Positions 6,535 through 64,000 of a stretch of 64,000 bases of DNA are shown piece after piece. The DNA lies in the NCBI GenBank assembly GCA_037043015.1, contig CM073321.1, forward strand, positions 26,797,510-26,861,509, in the 5' to 3' direction. A program made the translations under genes and the position numbers. The notes under the pieces were generated by a model. The model did no database searches, had not been told where the DNA came from, and saw only the letters and a list, made by a program, of their open reading frames with translations. Numbering within the stretch: the first letter of the stretch is position 1; each line of letters opens with the position of its first letter. The stretch is from Bryum argenteum (Eukaryota > Streptophyta > Bryopsida > Bryales > Bryaceae).

Positions 6535-6564
6535 AACGGATATTTACCTAATTATGGACAAATT
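6535..6564 (+). repeat. Element A left TIR
   Basis: 30 bp starting AACGGATATTTACC, inverted with respect to 38816-38845 with three mismatches. Preceded by ACAT (6531-6534). Confidence 0.88.
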
Positions 6565-6638
6565 CCGAACTTATGGATATTTTCACTAAAAAAATAAGTA
6601 TAAAAATGTATGGCAAATTACTAAATAATAGAAAACCA

Positions 6639-6701
6639 AGCAAGATATATTGAAAATCAAGCAAGATATATTGAAAATCAAGCAAGATATATTGAAAAGT
6701 G
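6639..6701. repeat. 21-bp tandem repeat, three copies, in the element A left subterminal region
   Basis: Three near-perfect units CAAGCAAGATATATTGAAAAT at 6639, 6660 and 6681. Close to the TIR, so a candidate transposase-binding or simple slippage repeat. Confidence 0.85.
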
Positions 6702-6778
6702 CATGTAGACTAATAAAACTATCTAAATTACTAAAAATAAAACTATTGAAATTATATCGGCCGAAGGCGAATACAAGG

Positions 6779-6843
6779 AAAACCGCTAAACCCTAAACCC
6801 TAGACCCTCAACCCTATATCCTAGACCCTAAACCCTAAACTTT
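6779..6843. repeat. Degenerate interstitial telomere repeat (CCCTAAA)n
   Basis: Runs of CTAAACCCTAAACCCTAG and variants (CCCTCAACCCTATATCC) within the left end of element A. The sequence matches the plant telomere repeat TTTAGGG read on the opposite strand, which supports a plant host. Confidence 0.85.
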
Positions 6844-7059
6844 AGACTGTAGACCGTAGATCCCGTTCCCAACCCACATTAGCTAAAATGCTGTATCGGA
6901 CGGCCGCCGATAGAAGCCCCAGGAATGTGACGAAGTAGTAGTAACAAATCATCAGATCTCAGCTCAGAAACGGAATCCTAAAGGTTGCACACTCATTCAT
7001 ACACAGATCAATTCAATATGATTGAGAGGGATACATGAATATAATGTCATGAATAGAAA

Positions 7060-7680
7060 AGTCCAATATCGGCGGCCAGCCGAGAAATGCGAGAATAATG
7101 AAAGAAGAGGAGTACATTGTAAGTGTACATTACAATGATCGCTACAATAAAGACAAAGTAGGATATACTGTATCGGAAAGCCATAGGAAGCTCAGACACA
7201 TATCAGCCGTTAGCTGAGAAACAGTAAACTAGAGAAATGGAGGGAGCACAACGAAGCAACCAATGAACGCTACATTCTCAAAAACGATGAATATACTGCA
7301 ATCAACTGTCATGGATAGCTAAGTCCGGTAGCGGCCGCCAGCCGAGAAAATGTAAACAAGAGTAATGGGATGAGTAAAGCAAATGTGAAAAAAGAGCTCT
7401 AGCATATCGATAATGAAGAGTATGCCGTAGCGAGATTACAACAGGTACGTAGAGACTTTAGACATGGAACGCAGTAGTGAGGTGAGTCGGATATGAACCA
7501 GCAGGTAGAGCGTCGTGTCGGCTGGCAGCCGATAGGAGGTCGGAGTTGCTGGTGCGAAAGCATATGAGTGAAGATCAGTATCGGCCGGCAGCGGACAAGT
7601 GCAGAGCAGGTCCGTCATAGATTAGGAGGATGCGAGAGAGGCTCACATGAAGTGTGTCGGCCAGAAGCCGATACAAATGT
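7060..7680. repeat. A-type palindromes 3' of the DUF7869 gene
   Basis: Diverged copies of the element A palindrome at about 7069, 7325, 7512 (TGTCGGCTGGCAGCCGATA), 7580 and 7655, spaced 70-250 bp. They lie beyond the C-terminal coding end of the DUF7869 gene, in its 3' UTR or downstream spacer. Confidence 0.8.
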
Positions 7681-7692
7681 ATGCAGAACACC

Positions 7693-10600
7693 TTAGAGAA
7701 CAGCTCCAGCGGCCTCAAGGTTAGACATTGCAGCTGCAGCGGCCTGCTCGGGAATGATATGTGTAGCTGGTGGACCTTTCCCTGCATGTGATGGCATCCT
7801 ATGAGAGAATAGAACAATGTTCACATTCACAATCTGAGGAAGACAAGGCTCCTTATGCCAGCGGCGAGTCCAGCACTCCCTAGCGATGATCGATTTTCCT
7901 TCCTTCTTAGCTCGCATAGGAGTCCACCATTCAATCTTGAAATTGCCATAGGTAGGACCAGGCGTCAGATCAACACACTCAGAGACACGCCCGAGCCAGA
8001 CAGGAAGGAAATGGTCGTCGTTGGGGCGGCATAAGACGAAGTCTCCAAGAAGAACATCACGGAATGGATTAAAGTTGAGCCTCGGTCGGTCTTTAGCAGG
8101 ACCACAGGAAGGATAAGCATCTGCATCATCCTCAGGCATAATGTCCTATGAGTGACAGGAGCTAGATCCAGAATCGAGCGAGGCACGAGAATGATCACAA
8201 GTCCAGTCTGAAATAGGCCAAAATCCTTCGACAAGAACGTTAGGGGTAGATGGTAATGGTGAATTGATCTCCCGGTTGATACGCTCCCAGTAGCCAACGG
8301 GTCCAGCCATCTCCTCGTAGTAACGTCTATTACGCGCCATACCGGTCTTCCAGAACTCTATGAATTTAGAAATACCGTGCTTGATGGAACCCTGTTTGTC
8401 ATTGCACTCCGAGGCACGAGCTTGCTCCTTCACAGAGTTCAGCTTGTTGGGGTTAACCTCCGTGACGCCCCATAATGGCTTAAATAGAACAGGACGTGGG
8501 TCGCCATGTGGAATTCTAGGTCTCCCTTGCTCATCAAAAGTCCACATCTTGACGGGGGGACCGGGTGGGAGCCATGAAGAATCAGTCGATTTCCTCTTAT
8601 ACCTCATGACAGGCCAGCCACGATCGTCACCGTCCTCTTCGACCCAGAACTTGAAAAGATGCATATCACCAAGTCCAACAATTTTGTTGACACCGTCGTG
8701 ATGAAAGTCTTTGACGTAGGATTTGAAATCCGCAACCTCTTGAACGAATTCAGGAATGAAGGCGACTGTCTTCTGCCAGTCTATAAAAGCCTTCATGAGA
8801 TCGCCTAGAACGTACGTATTCTTCCGCTTGATGAGCTTGGAAAGGTAACTGAAATGGGCATCAATATCCTCGTGAGTGTGGCCAACAATCAGGAACCCAA
8901 CAGTGACCTCCTTGAATATGCGCCGAGCGGTCAGCAAAGAGCAGAAGGCTATCACAAATCTGTTCTTGTTGTCCTTTGCGGAATTATCAAGTTGCAAGAA
9001 TAGCTTACGCGGAAGCGGTAGAAGCGGACGTCCAGGTTGTGAAGGACCGAACTGAGTCCCGGTGGCGGGTGGGATAGATGTGAAACACCTAGACTTTCCA
9101 TGTAGGAAAGCTTGGAAGAAGCTGTTTTGTGGAGGTGTGGGAAAGAGCTCCTGAGATTCACGTACCGGTGGCTTCTCAAGCGCTCGTAGTACACGACACA
9201 AGGAAGAGATTGTAAAGTTGGAATCCCCCGGCCAGAGAGCCGTGGAGTAGTGGGCGTACGCACCATCACCGTGGCCGTGAGTCAACATGCTGGTAACAGA
9301 AACCGGAATCTGTCCAAGGCCAGCAGTGGCTTTTGTAATCCTCTGCATTCTGGGAATGGCCGTCTTCGTGGTATCCACCTTGTCATCGATTGTACATAGA
9401 AACTCCGACGGGTTCTCGTAGGACTCGGAACTCCAGCCACCATAAATATGGCGGCAAGCACGCTGATAATTGAGATGGCGATTGCGGTCGTCGACTAATG
9501 CCTGCCACTCATCACAGCCCCTTGGATACTTGGATATGCACTCCACAAGGAAGTCACACTCAGTAAACTTAGAGAAGCTGCTCCCAGCAGCTTTAACCTC
9601 GACGTTCTTGAAGTGGCTCTTTCGAAGCTGACTGATGTGGCATTTGATATTCACCTGGAAGGCGGATATAAGGAAGGATGTTAACATCTTGGTCGACGCC
9701 TCCTATCGGCCGGCAGCCGACAGGACTGCAATGACATAAGCACGAACTAATCGCTATCGGAGTATCGGCTGCCAGCCGACAAGTAGCTCAACGACGACTA
9801 GATAAGCCACGACGTAAATGACAGTAGAAGGAAAAGAAGAATCCTCTAATTAGAAACATCCGAAACATAGCAACCAAGTGTATTGGCCGGTAGCCGACAT
9901 CGAGGACGAAGAGGAAATAAGAATGATTGGGACTTACTTGATTCACTTGCTCGCGCATGGTGTCCCAGTTGAGAGCAGATGGAACAACCTTCAGATCGTC
10001 AACTCGCTTATTTCCAACAAGCCTGAACTCGTTAGGCATCTGGTCCGCATTCTCGTCAATAATCTTCTGCAGGGTTGCTCTGGCCTGAATCGTATGCGGG
10101 CGTGGACGGACAGCTCCAGAATTGCCATGCGATCCGCTCACTGATCCACCCATTGCTGCAGCCTTGTAGACGTGGTAAGCTGATCTGGAGACACCGTGAA
10201 TGATATACCAAGCGTTCTCGCAGACCTCAACATTCTCAAGCGTGATGAATTTCCTCCCTCCCGATTAATGTACATGAAGTTGACTTTGAACGGCATACGC
10301 TGTCTCTCTTCTAATTTCAAAAGAGCAAGCATAGTACTTACGACGAAGGATTCGAGTAGACTCCCATGGAAATGTCTGACAGCACCTACTCTTGCAGCAC
10401 AGATGAGAGCTAACCTTGCGAATCTCATCATCCAACGTCTTCGATTTAAGCCTAGACCCAGCGGGCAGCTCCTTTGACAAGAGTCTACAACGAACGGACC
10501 TGTAGGGATTTCGAGGGACGCCCTGAAGTCCATGATGTTTGAAGGTAGTATTCTGAGCGGCCCCAGAGCAGAGCATGACAATGTCTGACAGGAGTTGACC

Positions 10601-13138: not shown

Positions 13139-13746
13139 GTAAGTCGATTTAGCTCTTGGTGACGTTTCAATTTGTGCCGTTTTGATTGCCGTCGTTTCAT
13201 TTTGAGCTCGTTGTGATCTTCTTGAGCCTCGTGTGTCGGCTGGCAGCCGGTAGCTCCTATGCTGTAGCTCCTTACTTTAGAATGCTTGGTGTATCGGCTG
13301 GCAGCCGATAGCTCCTATGCTGTAGCTTGTTCTCATGGAATGCTTAGTGTATACGCTGGTCGTCGATAGCTCCTATGTTGTAGCTCGTTACCTTAGAATA
13401 CTTAGTGTATCGGCTGGCAGCCGATAGCTTCTATGCTGTCGGCTGGCAGCCGAGAGCTTGCTTATAGCTCGTTTCCTTATTGTGCTTCGTGTATCGGCTG
13501 GCATCCGATAGCTTTCACGTTGTCGGCTAGCAACCAATAGCATGCTATTTGAAATAGGGCATTAGATTATCGCCGTAAATAATGCATGCCAGCAGAGATG
13601 AACCATGCATTCGGACGCCAGCCTTGACCATGGTCGCTATCGGCTGGCAGCCGATACCATAGTTGCTATCGGCTGGGAGCCGATAAGATATGCTTAGTGT
13701 ATCAGCTGGCGTTTACTCATATTCCTCACATGACTTTTTTCTGCAG
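13139..13746 (+). repeat. Intron 1 of the ParB-like gene: A-type palindrome array
   Basis: An intron from GTAAGT (13139) to CTGCAG (13746) containing about ten copies of TATCGGCTGGCAGCCGATA or variants (near 13225, 13292, 13345, 13408, 13438, 13493, 13520, 13637, 13663 and 13700). Several are preceded by the same TGCTTAGTG and followed by AGCTCCTATGCTGTAGCT, so the array arose by tandem duplication of a 60-70-bp unit. The palindromes are better conserved than the spacers. Confidence 0.9.
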
Positions 13747-16742
13747 AAAACCACCAGTTCTAGCTAGACTGCGAGGTGTCGAGCTTGCTCATACGGAAGT
13801 CAAGCATGGAGACATCGTCCCGCGTGCAGTAGGGGCGGCTAATCCAGCGATCGAGCAATGGGGATTATGCTAGAGGGTCCTCCCCAGCCAACGAATTGAG
13901 ATTGCTTGTTCATTCATGCTCAAGGGTAATATGATCCCTGGGTTTGGTAATGTGCTCGAAATTGCGGAGAATGTGGAGCATGTCGACGTTTTGATAAGCC
14001 TTCCACCCCTGAGGGATCCCTCCGCCCCGACCGACTACATTGCCGTATCACTGCCGCGGGAAAAGTGCACTGAGGCGGTTTGCAGAGAGCCGGCGATTCA
14101 GCACGGCATGACCTTCAACGGAACTGCGCCTGCGACCTTGGAGGAGTTCGTGGACGCGTTGTCCGCTATAGATTACGCTTGGTTGGCCGTAAACAATGCA
14201 CTCGATGCAGCGGCGGGTGCAAACCCATCGTCGTCAAAGAGGAAGCCAACTCCTTCGAAGAAGAAGCGACCTGCAGCAGAGATGATTGATCTTGGTGATG
14301 ACGACGATGACTACGTCCAGGGATCACAAAATCCCAGCAAGCCCAAGAGACGGGCAAAGTCGTCTAAGGATGTCATCAAGTATTCACTAGACGAGGCCCT
14401 GAGTAAGGGCAACCAAATGACATCGAAGATGAAGGACGTCAAGATCGACGCCCATTTACAAGGCATTGGAGACTGGTCTTGGTTACCTGTTCCCCTACAA
14501 GAAGCGGAGGCTGCCGGGGGTTATTCCTAGCGAAAAGCTGCACATCGCTCCGGACGAGCTCTAGTACAGACGCATCGCGAAAGAACGTCTGGGCCAGGTA
14601 TTATATTTTTCTCACCTTCTCTTATGAGGTACTGCTTTATGTATCGGCTGGCAGCCGATACATCTGCTGTTCATCTATTGTTCATGATTGTTCATGTATT
14701 CTGTGTTCTTCGCACGTGAAGGCCATTTACAAGAGCTACGGGGCGATTCGGAAGAAGCCTGAGATCCATGGAATTCCGCTGAAACGGGAGCCACTTGCCA
14801 CCGATAGCGGGATGATGGCTGTCATAGATTCGATGCTAGGGGAGTTGGATATGTGGAAGGTTAACGACACAGACCCCGACACCGCCCTGAAAATTCCGTG
14901 GTGGCAGCATCCTACTGTCCACTGGTGTATCATCGGTGGTCAGCATACAGTGACAGCCTGCCGCGAGTTGGCGGATGAGTACCCCGAAGGATCGGAAGCC
15001 AAGAAGGAGCTTCTCGAATTCAAGATTATCCCAGTGTTTTCGAGGGACCCCACCAATCTTGTGAGGGTATCAAACGACCTGAACCTGAATATCGCAGAGA
15101 AGGTTGCCAAGGAGTCCTTTCGATCATGCGCGGAGCTCGACAGGGCAGCATGGAAGCGACTCGGGTGCCCTGAGCCACATAAGGGAGGCGGGAAGCCGTC
15201 ACCGGCCTTCGAGGTAATGTTGCCCTCTGCCATTCTTATCAGCCGGCAGCTGACACATTGCATCTATCTCCACCTATCGACTGCCAGCCGACAGTCCTTC
15301 TGCTTGCCTTCATTCATTTAAATATGTTTTATTGTTCTTCAGGCTGCAAAGGCGCAAGTCATGGCGCACTTTGTGAACGAGAAGGTGTCTTCCAAGCTCC
15401 CCTTGGTATTCGTCGGTGACAAGGCCTGGAATACGTGGATCAAAGTCTTCAATGCCTGGAAAGTAGGTGAGCTCATTGGGGACGACGGCAAGGAGCCAGG
15501 ACTGATCAAGCGGTCTCCAATCTCCAACATCACGAAGACTGACCTTGTCCCCACAGTGGGTCTCCGTGACTACAACCTTGAAGAGCTTGCAGCGGAGGTC
15601 ATTGCGAATTGCGTCTGCATCAAGTCTAACAGCAAGACGAAGGACAGACTTACACTGCCGGACTGGTGCCGCGACAAGAAGCTCGACCGGGTCATAATGA
15701 ACGAACTTATGTATCAGCTCAAGAGGTATCCGCTTCCTTGCAAGGATGCGAACTGGTCGCCATACCAAGATGTTGAGTGGGACAAGTTGGCGAAGGAGCA
15801 CTATTTCACCGCGAGTGTCGTGCGCAACATCTCGACCGACCTGAAGAAATACACGGACGGGAATAAGTGGCTAAATGGTCGCGCGAGCGCAATGAATCCA
15901 ACGACGGACAAGTCGAAGAACGGGGTTGCGCCGCCCATATTCAGCACTATCCTGCAGACATATTCTCCGGTCCAGGTCACGACGGAGGAGGTTGATGTCG
16001 AGAAGGCGTATTTCGAGTGTAAATTTGCGGACACAGTTGCTGATGTCGTGCAGGAGATCGACGCAGCTGTTGGCCATGCCGGCATTGAGAAGGACCCACT
16101 CCTTGTTGTCTACTTCGGGTACAGTGTTGGCGGAGTCTCGGTCCCAACGAGTAGAGCGGATCTTCGTGCGCTCGCGGATCGTTCAAAGGTTCCACTTACG
16201 GATGAAGACCTCGCCTTGGACGATGACAACGTGACTCCAACTTGGCTGCTTTACCCAATCCCGATGTTGTTTATAACGAGCGCGAAGCAACGGGATCTTC
16301 TTTCCGCTGTCTGGACAACCGAAGATACTGAATGGTATGTTCAGACGGTGTATTACAAGCGGTGTCTTCGGGGGGGTTTCAAGAAGACGGTGAGGGAATC
16401 TTCGCCGCTTGTTACGCTCAACATGACGTACCCAAAGGTACGCGGGGATGATGATCGGTGGACGACATTCAGGAAGTACACTTGGATCGTTAAGCCAGTC
16501 GAGTGGTTCCAGGCTTCTCCTGAAGGTGCTGTCGATTGGAATGGGGGATTCTGCGGTGTCGACCATGAGACGCTCGAGAAGTTCCTCAAGCCTACTCTCA
16601 CAGCGAAGAAGGTCACCGTCATCAACGTTTGGGGTGGCGGAAACGTCACCGAGCTTGGATTGGTAAGGCATCCTCTCCTTTACTTTGTATCGGCTGCCAG
16701 CCGACACCTTGTTATATTGGTTTAGTCTCCCTTATTCGTTAT

Positions 16743-16767
16743 AACCCCATATTCTTTATATTGGGAA
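16743..16767 (+). repeat. Element B left TIR
   Basis: 25 bp starting AACCCCATATTC, inverted against 34810-34834 with four mismatches. Preceded by TTAT. Confidence 0.85.
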
Positions 16768-17108
16768 ATATGTATGACTTTGGGAGATTTAAAAGTAGAA
16801 AATCATCTAAAATATCGATCAATGTTAAGCGTAAAGTACTAGATCTTGCATCAAACATGATATGATTATATGCAAATAAAGACATTGCTCTGACGAAAGG
16901 ATGGGAATAAAAGAATATTCCATTTATTTGCTTGTAAATATCAATCATAATTCACAAAATATGTCATACAAGAGTGATGACTATCAAATCTGTACATAAT
17001 TACTTCTGTAGCTACTAGATGTAACTACTACGGAGTTCCACCATAAGCGACAATACGAGATTGGATGAATGCTCGTTGACGTCGACGTGTCCAGCTAGAA
17101 TCATTGTC

Positions 17109-17815
17109 TTACATCAATGGACTATCAAGAAGGCGTTGCAGTCTTTCGCGACGCCGGTCCTCAATGCTTGACTTAGGTAGCGAGTGGCGGTGGTTTTCTG
17201 ACAAAGGCTTCATTGCTCCTTGTTTAGTTGACTTTGAAGGACATGCTTTTGGAGTCCCCAAAACACGATCCTGAACAAAATAAAACAACAACATTTCTTA
17301 AAAGTGAACAAGCGAATGGATACATACGCGCAATAGGTAGCACATGAGTCCAATGTCTAAGAATTGTTTAATGAATTAGAGTGTACAGCAGAAGATCTAC
17401 AAATAGTTATTCGTTCATGCAAACACTTAACTCAATGCCTAAAATGGACGCTCTCGAGTAACTTCTCAAGGGATGAAGAAACAAACCTTCACAAAAACCT
17501 CTTCAGAAATATCCACGTCAATGTCGTATAACATACGCTTCGTAGGCGTACATGTAATTTGATGAGGAGAACCAATATGATTTAGCGTTGGAGGCGACAC
17601 GGGGGAAGCGGATTGCACATTCGGAGGTGATGCCTTAGTGACAGGGCTGTTAACTACTCCATCTTCTACCGCCATTGTTGAAAAATCCATGGTAGATTGA
17701 GCCGTTTCGGCAAGCTGCAATAATCGTCCTCTACTCCGAAGTGAAGGCCCGAAATCCGCAGCATTCATCAAAGAATCTACAGAAGCACGACAATCACCCT
17801 GCGTAATCTATTTCA
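17109..17815 (-). CDS. Element B unrecognised gene or 3' exons (two exons)
   Basis: Exon 17812-about 17484 opens after an acceptor (ATTACGCAG) and encodes GDCRASVDSLMNAADFGPS... through DIDVDISEEVFVK, then donor GTTTGT. The next exon, from about 17278 after TTTTGTTCAG, encodes DRVLGTPKACPSKS and ends RLQRLLDSPLM at TAA-like stop 17111-17109. The sequence is Ser/Pro/Thr-rich with a basic RRRERLQR end and no domain I know. It could be 3' exons of the HAD-like gene upstream (minus strand), although a stop at 18044-18042 separates them, or a separate small gene. The first bases after the acceptor (GGTGAYTGT) resemble the start of the second HAD-like gene of element A. Confidence 0.45.
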
Positions 17816-18041
17816 ACAATATGCCAAACAAATCATCACTTATCCAGAGTACATAAAGTTCATGCAAGACATTACTTTAAGCAAAACTAAAGATCACATT
17901 CTCTTCATATTCACAAAATGAAAATTTACTAACATATGAAAAGTCCTACAAATCTACTACAAGAGCTTCACAATCTAAGTTACGATTAAAATTAAACCAA
18001 AGGGACCAGAACTACCCGAGAATAGAAAACAAAATAATTTT

Positions 18042-19171: not shown

Positions 19172-19281
19172 ATTAACATATAGCAGCGCAATACAAATTC
19201 ATGGTATCAGGTAACAATAAGATAGAGGAAATAGAATATGGGAGCCAACAAGAAGCAGATATGAATAAGGGCAACACTTTA

Positions 19282-26350: not shown

Positions 26351-26423
26351 AAGTGGGGGTATGGGACCTGCGTGGAGAGGCGGCGGTGGTGGGACGTCGG
26401 ATCCCATCACGAAAAACTTTTTC

Positions 26424-30300: not shown

Positions 30301-30339
30301 ATATATTATATAGAAACTTTATTTAGAAAGAAAGGTTTG

Positions 30340-30760: not shown

Positions 30761-30761
30761 T

Positions 30762-38845: not shown

Positions 38846-38849
38846 ACAT

Positions 38850-51549: not shown

Positions 51550-52715
51550 ATGGAAGTAGTATTTAGCTCGACTGGACTTAATTTCCTACCTAATATACTA
51601 GTTTATAAATAATCATTTGACATCAAATAGGAACAATCTAAACCTTCAGACTGTGGACATAGCTCGAAACAATAACTTAAACAAATACCGTGCATTTAGG
51701 AGGCATCGACCTAAACAGATCGCGTTTACCAGGCAGTGATCTAAACACTCTGCATTTAGCAGACAGCGACCTAACCACTCCATCTATTTGGGATCGACCT
51801 AAACACTGCGTTTAGCAGACAGCGACCTAACCACTGCCTCTAGTTGGGATCGACCTGAAAATTGCCTGTTTAGCAGGCAGCGACCTAAACATTGTGCGTT
51901 TAGCAAACAGCGACCTAACACTGCGTTCAGTTCCGAGAGTTCTTACAACTGTGCATTTAGGAGGCAACGTCCTAAACACTTCGTTAAACATGCAGAGAAC
52001 TACACAATGCGCTTAGCAGACAGGGACCTAATCACTGATTGTATAGCAGGCAGTGACCTGAACACTGATCGTTAAAAGGGAGCGACCTGAACACTGCGTT
52101 CGGTTGGAGGTGACATGAATAGTGCGTTTAGGAGGCAGCGACCTAAACACTCTAAGTTAAACACTCTAAGTTTAACAGACATCGACCTACACACCGTGTG
52201 CTTACCAGGCAGCGACCTTAACACTCTAAGTTAAACAGGCATCGACATACACACCGTGTATTTACCAGGCACCGACCTAATATCTGTACGTTAAGCAGGT
52301 AGCGACCTAAACACACTGTGCGTTTAGCAGACATTGACCTATACAATGTGCGTTAAGCAGACAACGACCTAAACAATGTGCGTTTAGCAGACAGCGACCT
52401 AAACACACTGTGCGTTTAGCAGACATTGACCTATACAATGTGCGTTTAGCAGACATCGACCTAACACTGCGTTAAGATGGGAGAGTCCTAACCACTCTGC
52501 GTTTATCAAGTAGCGACCTAAACACTGCGTTAAACAGGCATCGACATATACACCGTGCGCTTAGCGGGTAGCAACCTTAAATCTGTGCGTTTAGCAGGCA
52601 GCTACCTAAAGCTGTGCGTTTAGCAGGCAGCTACCTAAAAGCTGTGCGTTTAGCTTGTGAAATAGGAAATACCTATTTTTGCGACCTAAATGCACAGGCA
52701 TCGACCTAAATGCAC
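51550..52715. repeat. C-type repeat array, 5' leader of the DUF7869 gene
   Basis: About thirty units of roughly 30-45 bp, consensus GTGCGTTTAGCAGGCAGCGA followed by CCTAAACACT. Each contains TTTAG-N11-CTAAA, usual centre CAGGCAGCGAC, so only the arms are palindromic. The array lies between the first coding exon (51424) and the GC-rich promoter (52.9 kb), probably in a 5' UTR intron. Confidence 0.9.
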
Positions 52716-52852
52716 ACTGTCATTCTTGTATTTGTAGTGATGTAAAATGAATCGCGCGGAGAGGTCGCAAAGAGCAAGATGAAATAACAATGCAATTGCG
52801 CATGGAATTGCAATTGCGTATGGTAATAGAGTACGTGATAGAGAGCAGAAAC

Positions 52853-53275
52853 AAACCCTAGCGCACTGACGAACACCCTTGAACACACACCAAATGCAAG
52901 CGCGACCAAGGGCAAATGCAAGCGCGAGCTATGCGAAGTGGTGGCAGCAGCGACGACAATCAGCAGCAGGAGAGGGCGCGCAACGACGAGGGCGGAGGAG
53001 GAGCGCAACGACGAGGGTGGTGGCAGCAGCAACGCTTGGCCTTGGCTGTGCGGTGCGTGCGGCGGAGGGTGGCGTGCTCGGAGTCAAGCGGAGCGCCGGG
53101 CCAGGGGGGCTTGCGGAGCGAGCGAGGCAGTGGCCCCCAGGTCGGCGGAAGCCCATTCAAAATTGGGCGGGATGCTCGCGCCAACGGGCGGCGGGCTGCC
53201 CTGCCCGGCCTGCCCTGTGCGACGTGGCGGCGTGGGGCCGCTGCCCGGGGGTGCCCGCTGCCTCAGCTAAATCGA
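52853..53275. promoter_or_regulatory. GC-rich promoter of the element C minus gene, with telo-box
   Basis: AAACCCTAG at 52854-52861 (telo-box-like on the coding strand) followed by a GC island with GCAACGACGAGGGCGG repeats. Its distal end, read on the minus strand, starts GCAGCGGGCACCCCCGGGCAG and matches the start of the island at 62,935 (plus strand), so the two promoters form an inverted pair. ORFs across the island are compositional. Confidence 0.6.
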
Positions 53276-53334
53276 ATGATAAAAAAAAATTAAGTCTCAA
53301 CTATATTATAATTAAAAAATTAAGACATAATTCT

Positions 53335-53500
53335 GTAATGCAACTAACTTATTGTTTCAAAATCATTGATTAAGATTTTATTATACATAGGCTAATAAAT
53401 AATTTAGTACTCTTTCTATCACACTTTCTAACGATGACCTAAATAATTTACTATAGATCAATCTTAGAATAAATTACCTTAGTAATAATTCAAATCAAAT
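53335..53500. repeat. Diverged direct repeat, copy 1 (partner at 54223)
   Basis: GTAATGCAACTAACTTATT ... ATTATACATAGGCTAATAAATAATTTA matches 54223-54390 over about 165 bp with substitutions and small indels. A local duplication within the AT-rich core. Confidence 0.8.
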
Positions 53501-55734
53501 CTTAGAATAACACATTCAAACTAATTGAATACTATAACTACAATAGTCTTTATATTTTACGAGATACTAGTCTTCAAAGATTTGACATCAAATAACTCAT
53601 GACATGTGTTAAACTTAGGTGAACACCCCTTTTGTGCTCTAATCTTGTCTTATTCAATGTTTTTGTGGTTGCATGTAAATTATAACATATAGCCGCGATA
53701 ATCGTATGTGTAATTTAAAAATACCATTGTTTTCATATGATTATTGTTTACTAAGACGCGTGTAACTCACTATTTACTTATGTATTTGCAATAACACCCG
53801 TACTTGTTGTCTTATCTATCTAAAAGATTCTAAATAAAATACTAAATAGTCTTAATTCTCATATTGATTTAAAAACACCTCAACACAAAAATTTGGTTCA
53901 TTGAGATAATGTAAGTAACTATGATTATTAATTTTTCTATTCTTTTATACTTTATTTGTTTATTATTTAAACTTATAATCACAGCGTGTAAAACATGATT
54001 CACGTATAAATGAAATTTTCATAGACTGACCTTTGTGTTTCAACAAACTTTATAAACTGATAATTACTTAGCGCATGAATTAAAATTAATTATATTATCC
54101 TTGCCTCTAGCTTTATTTCCACTATTTTCCAATATTATAATAAATTTGAAAACTTTAATTCCAATGATTAAAATAAATTACTTATGAAATCAAATTTAAA
54201 TAAAAAATTAAAAAACAAATAGGTAATGCAACTAACTTATTTATTTCAAAATCATGCATTAAGATTTGAATTATACATAGGCTGATAAGTAATTTACTAC
54301 TCTTTCTATTACATTTCTAATGATGTGCTAAATAATTCACTTTAGATCAATCTCAAAATAGATTAATTAAAATAATTCAAAATAACACAATCTACTAATT
54401 CGAATCTTACAATAATACATTCAAAATAACTAAATTATTCCATACCTAGAATAGTACATATACTTTACGAGTTACTAAACTTCGAATATTGATCATCAAA
54501 TAACTCAATTAAAATCTTAGAATATTTCGCTTAAAATATCAGAATTCGAATCTTACTAAACCAACTTTTAATGAAATTCTTGAATATTATACCTATCATA
54601 TCAAACTTCATTTACGTAATATTTATTTTAGTATACCACATCAAATCTAGTAAATTAATAAATTAACAAGACTCGACATATTTCGTACTTAAGTAATAAA
54701 CTTTGAATATTGCACTTACAACAATTTTAATCCTAGAATACCTTTGTTAGAAATTATTAGTACTAATATATGTAGGTTATTGAACGTAATTTTCCAAATA
54801 CTTAGATTAGAATAATTCGCTTAAAATAAATGTACACAAAAATTAGAATACTACTTTTAAAATGTTTGAATCCTAATTATTCTTATACTACTTCACCAAA
54901 TTAAATAAGAATTCTGTTATAAGTTCATACTTATTTACTAAATACTAACTTTAGTATACCTTACTCTAAATATAATGAAACTAATATCTATAATTGAAAA
55001 GCAAATAATTTAGTATTATTTTGATACCAAAAATAATGTAACAAATATTATATCTAAAGATATAACGATTATGAAGGCTTTAATTAAATTATAAAGGCTT
55101 AAAATATTTATTTTTATAACTTTTTGAAAACTAAATCATTCATATAACTTTTTAAAAAAAAAAAAAAAAACGGAAAATGAATTCATCTAATATTGTTAAT
55201 TTTAATATAGACTTTAGCTTATTACGTATCAATTGATATAAGTTTTTTATAGATGTATCATTTACATGTTATATTTATAAAAAACTTAATTATTCACAAG
55301 AGATAATAGTTATAATTCAATTTATATTTCAAATACATAAACCATTTATAAATCATCAAACTGAGCATAAATTTTTCTATAAAATCATTAAAATTAAACC
55401 AAAAAACAGCAGTGAAAAAAAAAAGTCAAGGTATTTTGGTTTGAATAAATTTAAGAACAAATTATAATATATTTCAACAAACTAAAATTATTCTTAAATT
55501 TTATATAAATTTATATTATTCATATACAAATGAAAAATTAAATTTCCATAGATAAATAATAAACAAAGTACGTAAACATAATTTAAAATAACCAATTTTC
55601 AAGATAAATATGTATTTTATATTAAACAAGATTATACATGTCATTCGTATTGTAAGGTCCACTTATTTTACGAGCTAATATTATGTTAATATATACTTAT
55701 CTAATTGCACGTCACCACCTCCCACATATCTTAC

Positions 55735-55875
55735 ACATTCAATCAAGGTTGTCACTGCAAAGCTGTAGTAAAGGTGCACGGGGTCTTACCGTCTAGCCGT
55801 TGGCACTCCGCATCATCACGAAGAGTTCAATTTCACTGAGTCCATGTTGGAGAAAGCAAAGCAGCCATTTTATTC
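55735..55875 (-). pseudogene. Nuclear insertion of a mitochondrial 26S (LSU) rRNA fragment
   Basis: Read on the plus strand, AAAGGTGCACGGGGTCTTAC, CGTCTAGCCGTTGGCACTCC, GCATC and GAGTTCAATTTCACTGAGTC are the antisense of the highly conserved bacterial-type large-subunit rRNA region around the start of domain V. The wording TCTTACCGTCTAGCCGTTGG is closer to plant mitochondrial rrn26 than to plastid 23S as I remember them. About 140 bp, with substitutions (GCATCATCACGA), flanked by unrelated AT-rich DNA. It is a NUMT fragment, not a functional rRNA. Confidence 0.8.
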
Positions 55876-56119
55876 TTATCATTGATATTACTTGTTTTTT
55901 GACGTTATATTAGATTTTAACTTTCATTCTTGAGGATTAAATAACTAAATAAACATTTGAATATTTAAGAAAGTCTTTGTGTGAGAAATTGAACCTATTC
56001 TATGCTTATGTCTTAAATTATTTGACCTTGTGAAATCATAAGAATAAGATTTATGAAAACCAATCAAAGAAATGAAATTTTTTAGTACTGAACCTTCTTA
56101 AGCTTAAACGTAAGCTTAA

Positions 56120-56476
56120 AACACGTAATTCGTTATAATGGGAATATTCAGATTATCTAATTGATGAAAATTGAGCTTGAGTTGAGCGAAATGTACTGTT
56201 TGGATACATTAAGTTTGACCCAAGCTAAACCCACATTTATGCATCATTTAACTAAATATGGACTTTTGGCTTATTTAGCACTTTAAAATATGGGGAGATC
56301 CCTCTATCCATGACCTTAAAATCTACATATTTGAAGAGAATCTTCATAGAACTTAGATTCTAGAAATATTTTACATCTATTGTTCTTAATTGTAGACTGT
56401 AGACTGTTCATATTTAGTCAAATATATAATATTTCTCAAATTCAGTGAATAATACCATTATAATGAATTACGTCTT
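56120..56476. mobile_element. 357-bp MITE of the element C family
   Basis: The left end AACACGTAATTCGTTATAATG is nearly identical to the left end of element C (one difference in the first 20). The right end reverse-complements to AAGACGTAATTCATTATAATG. TTAA flanks both sides (56116-56119 and 56477-56480), a 4-bp target-site duplication. It has no coding capacity and contains degraded palindrome words (TTGAGCTTGAGTTGAGC). It is a deletion derivative or MITE that inserted into its own relative. Confidence 0.88.
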
Positions 56477-57215
56477 TTAACCAAATCGAGTTTATTTCAT
56501 CATATATTGTTTACGTTGTAATAATTATAATGAATCATAAACATATAAAACTCTTTACTCCTTATTATGTTGTATTCTAAGCAATATAATATAATTCATA
56601 TTTATTTTAAGTATTGTGCTTAATCTTGGACATTTCATTTTTTAAAAGATGTTCATACTTCAAATTAACGATTGTTAAAATTATATACGTTTATTGAAAT
56701 TATACTTTTGAAATTATTTGTTGAAACTATACTTTTAAATAAATAAACTTCTCTATAAGACTATCTTACAGTACTCTACAATATATCATTATGCATTAAC
56801 AACGCGACACTGCAATGTACATTTATATTTATCTATACTTTATTAAAATATAATTTATTGAAAAGCAGCATTAAGTAAAATTTATTTATAATTTAACAAG
56901 CAAGCTAAAAAGGTATTACAAATAAAACTTGTAAAGCATTATGACTGAAATTATTCATCTTTATTGTCTAGAAATTACTCAAACATATTGCTTAGCATCA
57001 TGTGTATGTTAGGTTACTTATTTTTAAAATGTTTTGCTACTCTTGATCGAGATATCAATCATCTTTCGTAGCAATTGTATCACGTCAAGAGTTGTGTAGT
57101 TTTCAAATCTTGCATCACTTATAGCCATGCGTGGGCACCGAAAATCTCAGAACTGGATTATCAACACTTCTCACAGTGAGTAGCATTAATACAAGTTTTT
57201 GCTTTTTCGTTTACG

Positions 57216-57605
57216 ATGAACAACTCGAGCTGCAAAAGTCCGACAACAAAGAGTGCGAGCCGAGAGATTGAGTCTAATCACTCAGGTGCAGTGTACAGCT
57301 CACCTGAGCCGATGGACATTAACGATGTGAAAAGCATGCCGTTCAAAATTCATGGTGAAAAGCACCAAGTGCTTTTCACGTTGCAGAAGGGTCTGTACTT
57401 CAAGAAGACTTTCACACAAGCATGGACGACGAATTCAGCCTCAAGTACTGAACTGCTAAGCGATGCATATTATCTCCCCTCTCTGATAACTCATTATTGC
57501 CAATCTACCCATATACTCAACACTCTATTGGCAAATCCATCTTGTTTTGAATGCCGCTTGCAAAGTAAAAAAGACTCAGCCTCGTTGTGCGCCTTTTATC
57601 CTTAG
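57216..57605 (+). CDS. Unassigned ORF, 129 codons
   Basis: The longest open frame of the AT-rich core outside the Tc1 element. MNNSSCKSPTTKSAS..., with a small GC-richer context (57,115-57,700) that contrasts with its surroundings. No motif recognised, no clear splice sites; a fragment of a captured or older gene is possible. GAAAAGCACCAAGTGCTTTTC (57,357-57,377) forms a short perfect inverted repeat within it. Confidence 0.25.
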   Translation: MNNSSCKSPTTKSASREIESNHSGAVYSSPEPMDINDVKSMPFKIHGEKHQVLFTLQKGLYFKKTFTQAWTTNSASSTELLSDAYYLPSLITHYCQSTHILNTLLANPSCFECRLQSKKDSASLCAFYP

Positions 57606-58230
57606 CAATGCCTTCAGAACGTAGTGTCTTCAGCGTTTTAAGCGCGGGGCTCCCTACAGTGACGACTCGGCTTGATGTAGAGTGGGTGCTAACTCTCTTC
57701 GAATTGTATAGCAATGGTATCGAGTTTCTTGAGTTTTAAATCTAGGCAAGCAAAGTCCCACGCGGTATCCATTGTTAACATCGATTGCAAATACATCAAT
57801 TGATGGATTGATTATTAAAATCGAAACGAATGAAACAATTCGATCATAAATGATTTTCTTAATGTTGCATCTTTATGTATAATTTTATCTTCTGGCGTGC
57901 ACTTTAATACTTGCTTACATTTTTTAGAGCAAGTGAGAGACGACACTCGACTTGTGTTGAGTTTCAACTTGGTGCAAAAAGATTGCAATAAGTCTTATAT
58001 ATTTTGCATTCTTCTATGTTGAGGAGTGTTGAAACATTGCTACAGCTATGATAAGAGGCTGTAGAATCGGCAAATACAGAGTTTTTTTTCACCAAGATTT
58101 CCAATTGAGTTTCTGACACAACCAATACGCATAGGCGAATTGCAATTTTGAAACATAAGAAGATAAAGAATATCAATTTTCTTTCCTAGATTTTAAATTG
58201 TAAATTATCATTACTTAAACAATGTTTTTG

Positions 58231-58356
58231 TTTGATATACACTGTTGTTCATTTGATATACACTGTTGCTTATTTGATATGCACTGTTGCTTATTTGATA
58301 TACACTGTTGCTTATTTGATATATACTGTTCCTTGTTTGATATACATTGTCGCATA
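58231..58356. repeat. 21-bp tandem repeat, six copies
   Basis: Units TTTGATATACACTGTTGCTTA (58231, 58252, 58273, 58294, 58315, 58336) with a few substitutions in the outer copies. It lies about 100 bp left of the Tc1 element. Confidence 0.92.
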
Positions 58357-58463
58357 TAAAAACTAAAAAAAAATTAAGAAGTCATGTTCACGAAAAGAAG
58401 AAATGTAATTTACCAGTATTTTTTTAATTTAAAACTTATTAAAATTGTCAATGCTGGCCAATA

Positions 58464-60056
58464 CAGTGACCTTCAAAACTGTCCCAATGTTTGTACATGT
58501 TACATTCAAAAAATAATGTAGGTAAGAGAAACTCATGGAATGGAATGTAGTAAATTTATTGAAATAGTACATACAATGTACTAATTGATTACAAAAATTC
58601 CAACAAAATTGAAGCGCTCAATGTGAAAGGAAAAAAACCTAAAGCTACTCTGTACATTGGTACACTTTTGAACGTCCAACATGGAAATTCCTCACCACTT
58701 TGTCCATTTTCCTCTGGATTTTAATACAGCTGCTATTCGTCTGGGCATTGATTCTATAAGTCTCTTGCAATCATCAACAGTGATAGAAGGGAAGGTTTCT
58801 TCCACACGAGACCATAATTCAAGTATCCCTTTTGGTGGTGTGTCATATCGATTCAATCTCCTTTTCAAAATTGCCCATAGATTTTCTATAGGATTCAAAT
58901 CGAGACCGAAAGGCCAAGATAAGACACCAAAAGGTTGCCTAGAAAACCATTGTTTCATCTTTTATTCTTGGTATGTATAGGTGCATTATCTGTTGAAATA
59001 TGACTCGATGGATCTAAATTATATTTTTGAATTGTACCATGGAGATGCTCCTCCAAGATTTTTTGATAACCATTTGATTGAGGCGACCTTCAATTCTACA
59101 CATCATGCCAGGTCCATGTATACACATACATCCCCATATCATCACAGAACCACCACCATGCTTAACAGTCGGAATAACGGTCCGCTCTGAAAGTTCCTGT
59201 GGATCACGAACCCAACACCAAACTCTCCCATCTGAAGAAAATCTGTTAATTTTAGTCTCATCTCGAGAATATCACGTGACTCGGTCATCAATAGTATAGT
59301 CTTTGATACTTTTTCGGCAAATTCTAAGCGAGCCCTAATATTCTTTGCGTGACAAATGTGGTTTCTTTTCTTTCACATGCGATTGCAAACTGCTCTACAA
59401 AGTCCACGGCGTCTGAGAACTTCACCGACTTGTACTCCAAAAACTTCTTGCACATGTTTAGTAGCTTCTCTTGCAGTAGACACCTTCCCTCTTGTTATAC
59501 TAGTTACACAAGACCGCTCCATTGCACTTGTCAACTTGCGTGGTCTACCTCCAACTAAAAGCTTTGCATCTGGAAAATGCTTCTTACGGAGCCTCTGTAC
59601 ACTTGATTTACCAACATGCAAAGAATTTGCTATCTCTCTCACACTACAACCTTTTTGAAGCAAAGAGAGTATACCTTGTTGCTTCCCTGGGACAATGGTC
59701 TCACCATTTTCACTTGTGAAGCTAAACACGAAAGAAACAAATATATGACGCAAGAAGAACAAATACACACAACAGAACACAAACCAAGCAATTCACAATG
59801 CATGTACACTTCACTTGCTATGCATACAAGATTCACTCATATGTACTTTCAAAACTGTCCCAATGAAGAGAAAATATCTAGAGCTTCAATTCATGCACAT
59901 ACATGTAGAGACAAGTGGTAAGCCTTGCTCCTTGATTACCTTACTAATGATAGTATGTAACTAAATTGATGCCATGTCAGTCTAGCATGCAATCACTATG
60001 TGGTGACTCACCAAACTTTCAAATTATAAACATTGGGACACTTTTGAAGGTCACTG
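58464..60056. mobile_element. Tc1/mariner element, full length, 1593 bp
   Basis: The left end CAGTGACCTTCAAAACTGTC and the right end (reverse-complemented) CAGTGACCTTCAAAAGTGTC agree in 30 of 32 terminal bases. TA borders both ends (58462-58463 and 60057-60058). Related 23-25-bp internal repeats at 58655-58679 and 59843-59865 are in opposite orientation to the outer repeat of the same end, similar to but not the same as the IR/DR layout of some Tc1 elements. It encodes a decayed transposase on the minus strand. Confidence 0.92.
58692..59740 (-). pseudogene. Tc1-family (DD34E) transposase, decayed
   Basis: The N-terminal part has paired helix-turn-helix sequence (GILSLLQKGCSVREIANSLHV, then GRPRKLTSAMERS, the GRPR-like hinge). 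The middle in other frames gives FSDETKINRF (first catalytic Asp), HGGGSVMIWGC and DNAPIHTKNK (second Asp). The C-terminal frame has LDLNPIENLWAILKRRL (the Glu) and ends RGKWTKW. Frame changes near 59380 and 58960 and several stops show the copy is inactive. Start not determined. Confidence 0.85.
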
Positions 60057-61107
60057 TATATTCGATATAGACTGAATGTTGACCAATTTTGTAATTGAAT
60101 TTAACTAACTAGAATCTTAGAGAAATGTAAGATTGAAATATCCATACTTTTATGTAATAAATAAGTTATTTTACTCTTATTATCTAAGAATAATATAAAT
60201 TGATTTAAATTTCAATGAACAAAAATAGCAAATTAGACAATAAGAAAAATTATAAATTTCGATTTAACAAAAAATTAGCGTGCATAAATTATAAAATTTA
60301 AAATATAAAATCATATCACTATTAGATCTATACGGTTCTGATTCATACCGTACAAAATGAACAAATTATTTAAAAATAATGGAAAAATAGATTAATGAAA
60401 TGATGATAAAAATACCATTATTTGGCTAAGTAGATATCATCTTATGAATATTATATAAACAAATTTTTTTTTTGTAGAAATGCAAAAATTATTATTGACG
60501 GAATCGCATCTATTTGTAATGTTATGAATGCAATTTATATAACTAACAATAATAAATAAGTAAGGAATGAAAGAGTAGAATGTAAATGAAATAACGCTTT
60601 ATACATTCAAAATATATTAGAAAAATGTAATAAATGTGTTATTTTTTAATTTTTTTATTAAAATTCATTTATGTATTTTATTTTATACCAAAAATTTAAA
60701 ATATTAAAAAAACAACTACAGTAGAAGTGTAATTCCTAATATATTAGTAACAACTAAGAAAGTTGTGTTCCAGCTAATAATGACCATATAAAAATGATAT
60801 AATTTTGACAAAAACAAACAAATAACGCAACTATATGTAATTATTTATATGCAATGACGAGATTTTAAATGATTAAAACTTGAGAAGTTAGAAGAAAAAC
60901 TTAGATATTTTATACAATATGAACAACATAATTATCATAAAGTACTGTCTTAAAGACTATAATAATCGTACATTTTGAATTGTATGTATTCGAACAATGT
61001 TTCTAAATTAAGTATCATTTGTTTTATAATTAATTAAGATGTGTATAATTTTTTAAATTTATCTAAAATGTTATTATTCTAGTTAGTACTTGTAAATAGT
61101 TATTATT

Positions 61108-61285
61108 GGCTAAAATCAGTCATTATATGAATAAATCGAAATAAACTACAAGTAATTAATGAGAAACCCTAATATTTTCGTAAAATTGAACAAAATATTA
61201 CAATAATAAAACCTTGTTGTGTTTGTGATTGAAAAGTAATTCAAAACAATTTAGCAAATCAAATAAAGATCTGTATATTGATATT
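61108..61285. repeat. Diverged direct repeat (partner at 62177-62350)
   Basis: CTAAAATCAGTCATTATATG ... CCTTGTTGTGTTTGTGATTGAA matches CTAAAATCACATATTATATG ... CTTTGTCGTGTTTGTTATTGAA about 1,070 bp downstream. An old duplication in the AT-rich core. Confidence 0.75.
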
Positions 61286-62368
61286 TTGAAGTTAACTTTT
61301 GAACGGTTGAGGCTATTTTTAGCAAAATAGCACATTTTCATAAAAATGGTTAGAACCTATTAGAAGTTCAATCTTACAAACTTGTAATAGACTTATCGAA
61401 GATCGTGTGGACCAAAATTTGGGGCCTTATAAATTGTAAGATCATAACATATTAATATCAAAAATAAACTGCAAAATTTTATTATTTACACTTTGAGGTA
61501 TAATTGCTACTAATATACATATTGCAATAAAATAATCACCAACGAGAAAAACTTGATCCTGTTCATTTTTACGAGTCCTTTACTCAACAAAAATACATCC
61601 AAACAATTTCTTGGCTGAAATAAAAGCCATGCAATGGTAAAAACTACCGAACATTTAAAAAAAAATATAGCTCAAAATTAGACTCATATCAATCAATTTA
61701 ATGCATTATGTTCAAAACATTTTCGATCTTGTTTAAGTTTCTACCACTTAGACTACACTCTAATTGAGGGTCATCACAAAAAATTAAGTTGAATTCCAAC
61801 GGTGGATGAGGGACATATAGCTTTTCAAGTATCATACATTCTTCATTTTTACTGTTGTCAAAACATCATTGCAAATCCAATAGCAAAATCATTTGAATCC
61901 AAAAACTTCTCATTTCAAAGTTATTAAGAATTTCCTAAGATTTAACCATGAAAAAAATAAATATTGAAATACTATTTTTAATTTCACATAATTGCTTGCA
62001 ATGGTAATACATGCCTTAGGCTTGGAAACCCAAAAACAAGAGTTCTCTTCCCTTAAATGCATACCATTAATTTATACTTTATTTTATGCAGTTCCAAATT
62101 TTACAACACGAACTAGACCTGATTAATAACCAAATCAGGTATAAATGTAATTTCTTAGTTAGTAATTAGAAACAGTTATCTTTGACTAAAATCACATATT
62201 ATATGATAAATTCGTAATAAAGTAGAAGTAAATAATGGGAACCTATAATATTTACGTCGAATATTGTTACAATGAGAAAACTTTGTCGTGTTTGTTATTG
62301 AAGGCTAATTCGGAACAATCTATCAAATCAATTAGAGTTTACTGAATTGAATGGCGTTTATAACTTAA

Positions 62369-62627
62369 CCCCTAAAGATCCAAGAAAGCCGAAATGGCTT
62401 TTTGGGGTTTCCGCAGGGAAAAAAGTCAGCCCACTTTGACCATTATAATCTCAAAACCGGAAAAAATTAACGGTTCAAATTTGACATATGAGTATAGGGT
62501 AAAGTTAACTTCAAGATCCTATGATTGGATCTTCTAATTAATGCTTAGATTGAGTTTTTTCAAGCCCGAAGTAGAAGAGGGTCCTTTGTGATAATTTAGA
62601 TAATTTTGTATTAAGGATCTTTAGGGG
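62369..62627. mobile_element. piggyBac-like MITE, 259 bp
   Basis: Terminal 13-bp inverted repeats CCCCTAAAGATCC / GGATCTTTAGGGG, each bordered by TTAA (62365-62368 and 62628-62631). TTAA target sites with CCC-starting ends are characteristic of piggyBac. No coding capacity. Confidence 0.82.
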
Positions 62628-62929
62628 TTAACAAACTTTGAATATGTTACAAAATAAATAAAAAAGTAACTTTTATAATTTGATGATTGCTCTTCAAAAT
62701 TGAGTTTCGATCATAATCTGCTTGATTAAAATCTTTGAGGTTAAATATATTACAAAAAGTGCAGTAATGTGGTCTAGAGAATATTCTAAGAATTAGAAAA
62801 TTAATAAGTCTGGACATTTTGTAAGTAATGAAAGTGCAAAACAAAAACATACAAAAATAGATATTGTGAATTAGAGTGTTTGAATTTAACAAATTGTAGC
62901 AATATAGTAAAAAAAACATTCACAATACT

Positions 62930-63620
62930 ACGACAGCGGGCACCCCGGGCAGCGCTACCCCATCACGCACGGACAGCGAGCACCCAAAGGCAGCCGGGGC
63001 AGCCAGTGCACCCCGAGCAGCGGACACCCAGGGGCAGCCGGGGCAGCCCGGGCAGCAGCCTAGCGCCGCCTAATGCCCGTGGGGCAGCCTGCGCTGCCGC
63101 CACGCGGCCATTTCCCTGAGCAGCCGGCGGTGTCGCCGACATCTTCCGCGCGAGCGCCCCGCCAATACTCCCCGCTCTCTCATTTTGCTGTTCGCCGTTT
63201 GCCGCAGCTCCTCCCACCTTCGCTTACCTTCGCGCCGATCGTCACCGTCTTTCTGCTGCTCTTCATCGTTGCTCTCCTCCCGCGTCGCTTTCCTCCCGCG
63301 TTGTGCGCGCTCCTCCTCGTCGCGGTCCTGCTGTTCCGCAGTTTCTCGTCGCGCTCTTGCTTGATCGACTCCCTCCTCCTCGTTCGCGCGCTCTTCCTGC
63401 GCACTTTGTGCTGCTGCTCTTGTGCTTTGTGCTGCTGCGCTTGAGCTGGGGTTTCGGCAAATACAGATTTGAGGCCTCATTTTCGAATTTCCGCTTGAGC
63501 TGGGGTTTTCCGCATTCAGCTTTTCGATTAGGTCATGCTTGTTTCGACCCTGATTTGCGGCTAGGGTCTCAGCGTTTCGTGACCGCGCGCTTGTTTTTGC
63601 TCTCTCCATTTAGCAGGTAC
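62930..63620 (+). promoter_or_regulatory. GC-rich promoter and leader of the element C plus gene
   Basis: An abrupt GC island starting GCAGCGGGCACCCCGGGCAG, inverted relative to the end of the island at 53,250. It then becomes CT-rich (63,200-63,450) as in the leader of the element A plus gene. A probable first exon ends at TTTAGCAG|GTACGC (about 63616). ORFs through it are rich in Leu, Cys and Arg from CT/GC composition and not believed. The gene it drives is expected beyond the window. Confidence 0.55.
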
Positions 63621-63729
63621 GCAATTTGCATACGCGATTCCAATATCTTACGCATTTGCATTTCAATTCCAACTTGATCTTGCATTTTTCGACCTCTGCG
63701 CGCTCTTCACTTTACATAACTAGAATAAC

Positions 63730-64000
63730 ATTGTGCATTTAGGTCGATGGGTGTGCATTTAGGTCAATGGGTGTGCACTTAGGTCGCAAAATTAGGTATT
63801 TCCTATTTCACGAGCTAAACGCACATCTTTTAGGTCGCAAAAACTGGTATCTCCAATTTCACGAGCTAAACGCACACTTTTTAGGTAGCTGCCTCCTAAA
63901 CGCACAGCTCTTACGTAGCTGCCTGCTTAACCCACTGCTTTTAGATAGCTGCTTTCTAAACGCACAGCTTGAAGGTAGCTGCTTGCTAAACGCACACCTT
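63730..64000. repeat. C-type repeat array in the opposite orientation
   Basis: Reverse complements of the 51.6-52.7 kb units: TTTAGGTCGATGGGTGTGC, then GCTGCCTNCTAAACGCACA repeats about 40 bp apart, continuing to the window edge. It occupies the first-intron position of the plus gene and mirrors the minus-gene array. The block TAGGTATTTCCTATTTCACGA (63,793-63,813) is shared, inverted, with 52,655-52,676. Confidence 0.9.

Follow-up and report, generated by a model that had tools for sequence, protein, structure and literature searches.

Here, we have analysed a 64,000-nucleotide stretch of the genome of the moss Bryum argenteum (the window; C1:26797510-26861509 in a 25-contig, 258.8-Mb genome; coordinates below are those of the window unless a contig is named) and showed that it carries two mobile elements, A and B, bounded by terminal inverted repeats (TIRs), with observed borders and an observed insertion of B. 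A third element, C, probably starts in the window. We judge it probable, though far from certain, that the elements are cut-and-paste DNA transposons with several genes, or decayed remnants of these, in which a DUF7869 protein is the transposase and a ParB-like and a HAD gene make up a palindrome-reading helper module for self-regulation or anti-silencing.

Two nested elements and a probable third

Element A, the outer one, extends from 6535 to 38845 (32.3 kb including B and 14.2 kb without it). Terminal alignment placed its TIRs at 6535-6561 (forward strand) and 38819-38845 (reverse strand), matching at 22 of 24 bases, and it is flanked by the target site duplication (TSD) ACAT at 6531-6534 and 38846-38849. 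Element B occupies 16743-34834 (18.1 kb), with TIRs matching at 20 of 24 bases and the TSD TTAT at 16739-16742 and 34835-34838. The gene order is alike in both: the DUF7869 gene runs in one direction, and the ParB-like gene followed by the HAD gene in the opposite one. A first-pass annotation of this sequence had described such an order outward from the centre, between TIRs starting with AAC and the 4-bp TSDs ACAT and TTAT, and our end test and Pfam matches confirm it. Both of its elements are real, yet it did not state outright that B is nested within A, where it lies in an intron-like gap 3′ of exon 2 of A's ParB-like gene. When every AAC...GTT pair flanked by identical 4-bp words was ranked over 104 kb in and around the window, A and B came out as the top two, and the third (18/24) is a telomere-like repeat. 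A chance origin of the TIRs of A and B was rejected.

Searches of the genome were scored in part (40 of 67 and 40 of 875 candidates for DNA queries; 144-150 of 167-1811 candidates for protein and family queries, with all 119 for a light-harvesting search), so the genome counts given here are lower bounds. That B is an insertion came from a genome-wide search with A's flanks joined around B as the query. In 38 of the 40 scored rows the alignment crosses the joined junction at 80-94% identity, and the remaining two rows are the window's own halves. Three loci (L038, L039 and L040) were read base by base at the junction, the other 35 rows being scored by alignment only. At L039, almost all 320 bases are aligned; the one gap, of 7 bases, is well away from the junction, where a single TTAT is found. 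The alignments of L038 and L040 end shortly past the junction and are gap-free there, with one base of TTAT changed in L040. The single TTAT at the empty site therefore shows that B is an insertion that duplicated TTAT.

For element C, the first-pass annotation had claimed a DUF7869 gene and a matching end. The gene is well supported (PF25273, E 3.1e-32), while the end is only probable. It lies at 47795-47818 on the forward strand (AACACGTAATTCATTATAATAGGA, preceded by TAGG) and agrees with the other ends at 17 of 24 bases, a score not significant alone, as background sites of 17 and 18 exist; the end scan is noisy, with means of 9.8-79.6 hits per shuffled sequence. We accept this end because it is 0.7 kb beyond C's DUF7869 gene and shares 22 of 24 bases with the end at 56120 of a miniature inverted-repeat transposable element (MITE). 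Thus, C probably begins at 47795 and extends past the window edge; its ParB-like gene is at 65607-67764, beyond the window, and neither a right end nor a HAD gene of C was found up to position 84 kb. The MITE itself, inside C at 56120-56476 (357 bp), has ends resembling C's left end and the TSD TTAA. In the genome search, 30 of 40 scored rows (itself included) are near full length, and 27 of those 30 are on contig C1.

Recurrence of the gene set and selection on it

The gene set was further studied in six 30-kb stretches chosen from 150 HAD hits to span ORF-length (open reading frame) classes, two of them for a known nearby DUF7869 hit. All six contain a HAD gene because they were selected around HAD hits. 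In 6 of 6, a ParB-like ORF precedes the HAD gene in the same orientation, and a divergent DUF7869 gene was detected in 4 of 6. Three copies, C1_38170 (C1_38), C8_15344 (C8) and C3_10308 (C3), have AAC ends and equal TSDs (GTAG, CTTT and AATA) and measure 17.2, 20.3 and 18.4 kb, and a fourth, C4_25237 (C4; 21.5 kb), has AAGGGGATATT ends and the TSD TGTT. In the end scan of the 30-kb stretches, only the right end was found for C6_18021 (C6) and neither end for C2_18903. The first-pass annotation had named TIRs around one gene only, or the same genes at host loci lacking TIRs, as evidence that would speak against a transposon; for this lineage, four of the six chosen copies instead have TIRs and TSDs around the same set. 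Large size and several genes per unit could be expected of clusters of host genes, or of segmental repeats, that only resemble bounded elements, but this explanation is contradicted by the empty site with its single TTAT, the matching TIRs and the differing TSDs at several loci, and we regard it as extremely improbable.

The multi-gene TIR transposon lineage with 4-bp TSDs is also supported by co-occurrence far above that of shuffled positions (uniform within each contig of rounded length). A ParB-like hit is located 2.5-6.5 kb upstream on the same strand of 37 of 150 scored HAD hits (observed distance 3.0-4.2 kb; shuffled mean 0.5, maximum 3). Divergent DUF7869 hits lie 4-30 kb upstream of 87 of 150 scored B-type ParB hits (shuffled 3.8, maximum 9; same-strand control 2) and at 3-30 kb from 57 of 75 A-type ParB hits (shuffled 1.05, maximum 5; same-strand 1), the latter test using the first 123 of 146 DUF7869 matches and the first 75 of 96 ParB matches, with the low-scoring tails omitted. 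For 19 of 150 HAD hits, a divergent DUF7869 hit of the A list is 3-30 kb upstream (shuffled mean 2.0, maximum 6).

DUF7869 probably extends beyond this lineage. Of the 85 top-scoring Pfam DUF7869 rows, 0 have one of the same 75 A-type ParB matches at a distance of up to 30 kb, against 3 of the remaining 65, a division made by rank, not by tree. Members from outside the lineage make up most of this Pfam list. As its top rows are without an A-type partner among the matches listed, relatives consisting of DUF7869 only probably exist. There was no TIR pair at the 3.6-kb DUF7869 loci L001-L008.

The window's own copies carry damage, for example the split DUF7869 gene of B with an Ala in the last of its Asp motifs. 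C3 and C8 appear intact. Their stop-to-stop DUF7869 ORFs are 989 and 980 residues long, and those of the two ParB-like exons 514 + 512 and 508 + 473 residues, followed by a 270-residue coiled-coil ORF and a 269-residue HAD ORF. Some of the gaps between ORFs have GT-AG borders by eye, and the coiled-coil ORF reads as a putative exon 3 of the ParB-like gene if these gaps are spliced. The ratio of nonsynonymous to synonymous substitution rates (dN/dS) between C3 and C8 is 0.06 for DUF7869, 0.07, 0.09 and 0.09 for exons 1, 2 and 3 of the ParB-like gene and 0.11 for HAD, with splice borders set by eye and the frame taken as that with fewest stops. All five ORFs of this one pair are under purifying selection. 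The dS of the same pair ranges about eightfold, from 0.12 (HAD) to 0.92 (ParB-like exon 1), and this mosaic suggests exchange of modules between copies.

Since selection acts on every ORF, the extra genes look like helpers rather than cargo. The first-pass annotation had left both options standing as stable cargo or helper genes; in the one pair of copies compared, the helper option is favoured and the cargo option disfavoured. We think it quite unlikely that these are ordinary Sola-like transposons with ParB-like and HAD genes as captured passengers without a role. The 4-bp TSD and the DDD-like pattern would suit such passengers, as would the occurrence of Sola in a moss, reported in PMC10741241, and the best-scoring DUF7869 rows without a detected A-type ParB partner. 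Against them stand the low dN/dS and the persistence of the gene set in families with ParB-like proteins that are only 19-38% identical to the C3 copy.

Proteins and palindromes of the elements

The DUF7869 and HAD-like assignments of the first-pass annotation were both borne out by hidden Markov model searches. PF25273 (DUF7869) matches A (E 5.6e-40), B (4.3e-39) and C with 112-137 bits against a curated cut-off of 26. In A, the DUF7869 core is at 8149-9702 on the reverse strand, in a gene region of ~7.7-11.6 kb whose frame is interrupted. B's gene (31764-34125, forward strand) is split into several ORFs, and C's (48512-51290, reverse strand) is interrupted. In an 11-row alignment of lineage members and five loci of another clade, from which B's damaged copy was left out, D447, D572, D612 and D614 (C3 numbering) are invariant in the 10 rows covering each. 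These residues occur in the motifs [HDIV]D[KG], [QR].DN and GHTH[ED]DID; in B, Ala replaces the last Asp of the HTH..D motif (HTHDDIAALF). Such an invariant set would fit the DDD triad of a Sola-type transposase. Comparison of the DUF7869 profile with the PDB gave no result, and a full-text search, with most subscription journals outside its reach, found no literature on DUF7869. A further DUF7869 gene (forward strand) lies a short way outside the left edge of the window at C1:26794459-26796767, with a highly repeated AACTTGGGACC-type unit to its left, and is probably part of a fourth element.

The HAD gene of A is at 36205-36987 (forward strand; PF03031, the NIF family, E 6e-8) and that of B at 18193-18846 (reverse strand; E 8.4e-13). 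With 33 bits in A and 48.7 in B, the two genes pass the Pfam cut-off of 21.8 for NIF/HAD phosphatases, but differ from these in having DxN where DxD is expected: direct reading gave DVNG in A and DLNG in B in place of the catalytic DxDx motif. A PDB comparison of the HAD profile gave no result.

A's ParB-like gene (13874-16722, forward strand) has an IIGGQH motif and a second part resembling a methyltransferase (MTase) at 15322-16722, followed by a gap that is GT-AG by eye. In B, the gene is on the reverse strand and interrupted in all three exons: exon 1 (21938-23481) with IINGQH, the MTase-like exon 2 (20669-21706) and the coiled-coil exon 3 (19427-20239), which was placed by nucleotide alignment to C3 and C8. 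GQH is common to nine ParB-like sequences, and the P, V, A, S, N, R, W and G around it are invariant. The nearest known family appears to be DndB/DGQHR (PF14072), which has a similar F.I..GQH motif, although the residue after GQH is S/T/Y/C here and not R. The hhalign probability against DndB is 20-28% with only 25-27 columns aligned, from six loci of which two gave another's ORF and one lacked the motif; the profile score of 35.7 exceeds those of 120 of 120 column shuffles (maximum 15.3). These profile tests are insensitive, as DndB scores 0.2% against Spo0J, while Spo0J scores 96.8% against phage ParB domains.

Exon 2 scores 28.5 and 23.2 against N6/N4 methyltransferases, above 120 of 120 column shuffles (maximum 21.2 and 21.6). 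Its unguided top alignment is on motif X-I-II in two runs (E 0.01-0.28) and elsewhere in a run with fewer sequences. At the site where we would expect by eye the DPPY-type catalytic motif, the sequence is D[FL][RQ] with no PPY, and a candidate motif IV (DPPY) match was rejected, being a second hhalign hit on another segment. A GQH-type domain followed by a region resembling MTase motifs X/I/II recalls the phage fusions of ParB with N6/N4 DNA methyltransferases, from which our sequences differ by the absence of DPPY and a weak alignment. Such a fusion is offered here as a lead. Viral contigs gave 159 pattern matches to the ParB-like alignment, none of which was confirmed.

Arrays of palindromic repeats accompany these genes. 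A's array (13226-13683; TATCGGCTG..CAGCCGATA; repeat families D11/D12) lies between the divergent genes. B has one array upstream of the ParB-like gene (23709-24402; CAGTTTAGCTCGASTCGAGCTAAACTG at about every 46 bp; families D1-D5) and a second, found by repeat search, upstream of DUF7869 (30749-31398). In C, CTAAACGCACA / CGACCTAAA units recur about every 30 bp at 51687-52717 (families D2, D6 and D7), and an inverted counterpart (inverted repeats I1 and I2) lies at 63719-64000, at the window edge, with C's ParB-like gene following at 65607. The element families have their own, differing palindromic repeats: the dyad is CAGTTTAGCTCGA-S-TCGAGCTAAACTG in B, C3 and C8, ATTCAACTCGA/TCGAGTTGAAT in C1_38 and C6, and TTATCCCCGG/CCGGGGATAA in C4, while that of C is of the looser CTAAACGCACA/CGACCTAAA type. 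Palindromes were counted against one mononucleotide shuffle per element, the count for C4 including AT repeats. Half-sites with at most one mismatch fall mostly outside ORFs (62 of 69 in C3, 85 of 88 in C8 and 35 of 46 in C1_38). These mainly precede the DUF7869 gene and the ParB-like gene or occupy gaps between ORFs. The others (7 of 69, 3 of 88 and 11 of 46) are inside ORFs, several of them close to an ORF end, in what is probably intron.

In B, C3, C8 and C1_38, the arrays flank an AT-rich core; that of B (24403-30748) is AT-rich from ~26 kb, with a GC content of 27-30%. AT-rich cores between arrays are also present in C (53000-63700) and C4. The cores of C3 and C share pieces that are 81-85% identical, although no nucleotide match of at least 250 bp was obtained between their genes. 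This sharing suggests that other transposons fill the core, and on the same ground we rejected the core as a conserved ancestral part. The AT-rich cores are probably a landing zone for other transposons. Helix-turn-helix ORFs that are alike occur in C (59376-59792, a weak match) and C8, and look Tc1/mariner-like by eye. Palindrome arrays around an AT-rich core would also be expected of a plasmid-like partition or replication module, with parS-like palindromes, a ParB-like protein and an extrachromosomal phase. We find this very improbable, given that ParB proper is unmatched and the pieces common to C3 and C suggest a core filled by other transposons.

A putative helper module and its relation to known systems

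How the elements could work is suggested by their anatomy, by selection and by analogy. DUF7869 would be an RNase-H-type DDD transposase acting on the short TIRs of 24-27 bp and leaving 4-bp TSDs. The other arm would form one or two transcription units, encoding a GQH (DGQHR/ParB-like) and MTase-like protein that ends in a coiled coil, and its partner, a HAD/NIF protein. We argue that the GQH/MTase-like protein most likely recognises the palindrome of its own family, whose arrays precede both divergent genes and also occur in probable introns, and that through this recognition the element could control its own transcription and probably protect it from host silencing, as VANC does for VANDAL. 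A more specific version is tentative, and we would not bet on it: each family may have its own sequence-specific epigenetic immunity, in which a fusion of a DGQHR/ParB-like domain and a catalytically altered MTase fold reads the family palindromes and, together with the HAD partner, prevents silencing of the element, protein and palindrome co-evolving in each family.

Several results weigh against this interpretation. The candidate role of DUF7869 is read from a motif and from association, not from homology to a studied transposase, and Pfam DUF7869 rows show no excess near HAD rows (9 of 150 within 30 kb; shuffled mean 6.0, maximum 13), though seven of those nine pairs are divergent. The label ParB-like is weakly supported. 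The ParB/Srx-like character proposed by the first-pass annotation survives as the weak profile match to DndB/DGQHR, but not as membership of ParBc: no Pfam family, ParBc and related ones included, matches any of nine members at E up to 10, and the match to Spo0J-type ParB is nil (0.1%; hhalign, 80 Spo0J sequences). NCBIfam and PHROGs gave stray matches only (the best, to PHROG 2289, a helicase loader, at E 0.0071 in one member), and the PDB gave no match. For exon 2, Pfam returned unrelated weak matches only and the MTase probability is at most 4.1%. Finally, VANC motifs, short and of a single orientation, differ from our long palindromes (27 bp in the B family), and the proteins are likened by description.

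The palindromes might instead be binding sites of DUF7869 itself for synapsis or auto-repression, with the ParB-like and HAD proteins serving another step such as licensing or repair. Half-sites are found directly before the DUF7869 gene too, and CACTA elements have subterminal motif arrays bound by transposon proteins. In our elements, the arrays are not subterminal: they occupy the middle and the spaces between exons, and in C3 and C8 they stay at least about 3.4 kb away from the end on the DUF7869 side, so we hold DUF7869 binding to be unlikely, if the most serious of the alternatives to a palindrome-reading helper.

VANDALs are Mutator-like. These Arabidopsis elements resemble ours in being multi-gene transposons with an accessory gene and family-specific motif arrays in non-coding upstream and intron parts. 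According to PMC5735166, VANC motifs (YAGTATTAY, short and in a single orientation) form arrays in introns and upstream regions. Sola elements, as described in the review PMC10741241, have a DDD transposase, a 4-bp TSD and TIRs of 11-1124 bp, are found in a moss and are mostly 2-9 kb long, with some over 15 kb. Our elements are like them, by description, in the TIRs, the 4-bp TSD (ACAT, TTAT, GTAG, CTTT, AATA and TGTT) and, putatively, the DDD-type pattern, but differ in the conserved ParB/MTase-like and HAD genes and in the palindrome arrays, and their 14.2-21.5 kb matches only the extreme size reported there. Full-text searches, with most subscription journals outside their reach, found neither ParB with a transposase in moss DNA transposons nor eukaryotic DNA transposons with ParB, methyltransferase and transposase. 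We regard the elements as TIR transposons of a Sola-like kind that carry a conserved module of helper genes, whose function is proposed by analogy.

Contig C1 (44.1 of 258.8 Mb) has 119 of 150 scored B-type ParB hits, 113 of 150 B-type DUF7869 hits and 88 of 150 HAD hits. By contrast, it holds 6 of the 85 top-ranking Pfam DUF7869 rows and none of the 90 matches to light-harvesting proteins. It looks gene-poor and transposon-rich, and is perhaps a sex chromosome. Tandem clusters of light-harvesting-like genes (weak PF00504 matches) are present on contig C2 at ~25.06-25.09 Mb and on contig C5 at ~8.2-8.4 and 14.73-14.76 Mb, and we take these to be perhaps ELIPs, as in desiccation-tolerant plants. 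Between A and C, two long ORFs at 42619-46279, of which the second weakly matches a SWIM zinc finger (E 0.27), possibly encode another transposon protein.

In summary, these plant DNA transposons form a lineage whose helper genes are conserved and whose palindrome arrays differ from family to family, and the lineage provides a hypothesis for the function of DUF7869, namely that of a DDD transposase. The pile-up of elements on one chromosome bears on the evolution of a sex chromosome or low-recombination chromosome. If the anti-silencing role holds true, the helper module would parallel the VANC system independently, in a different transposon superfamily.

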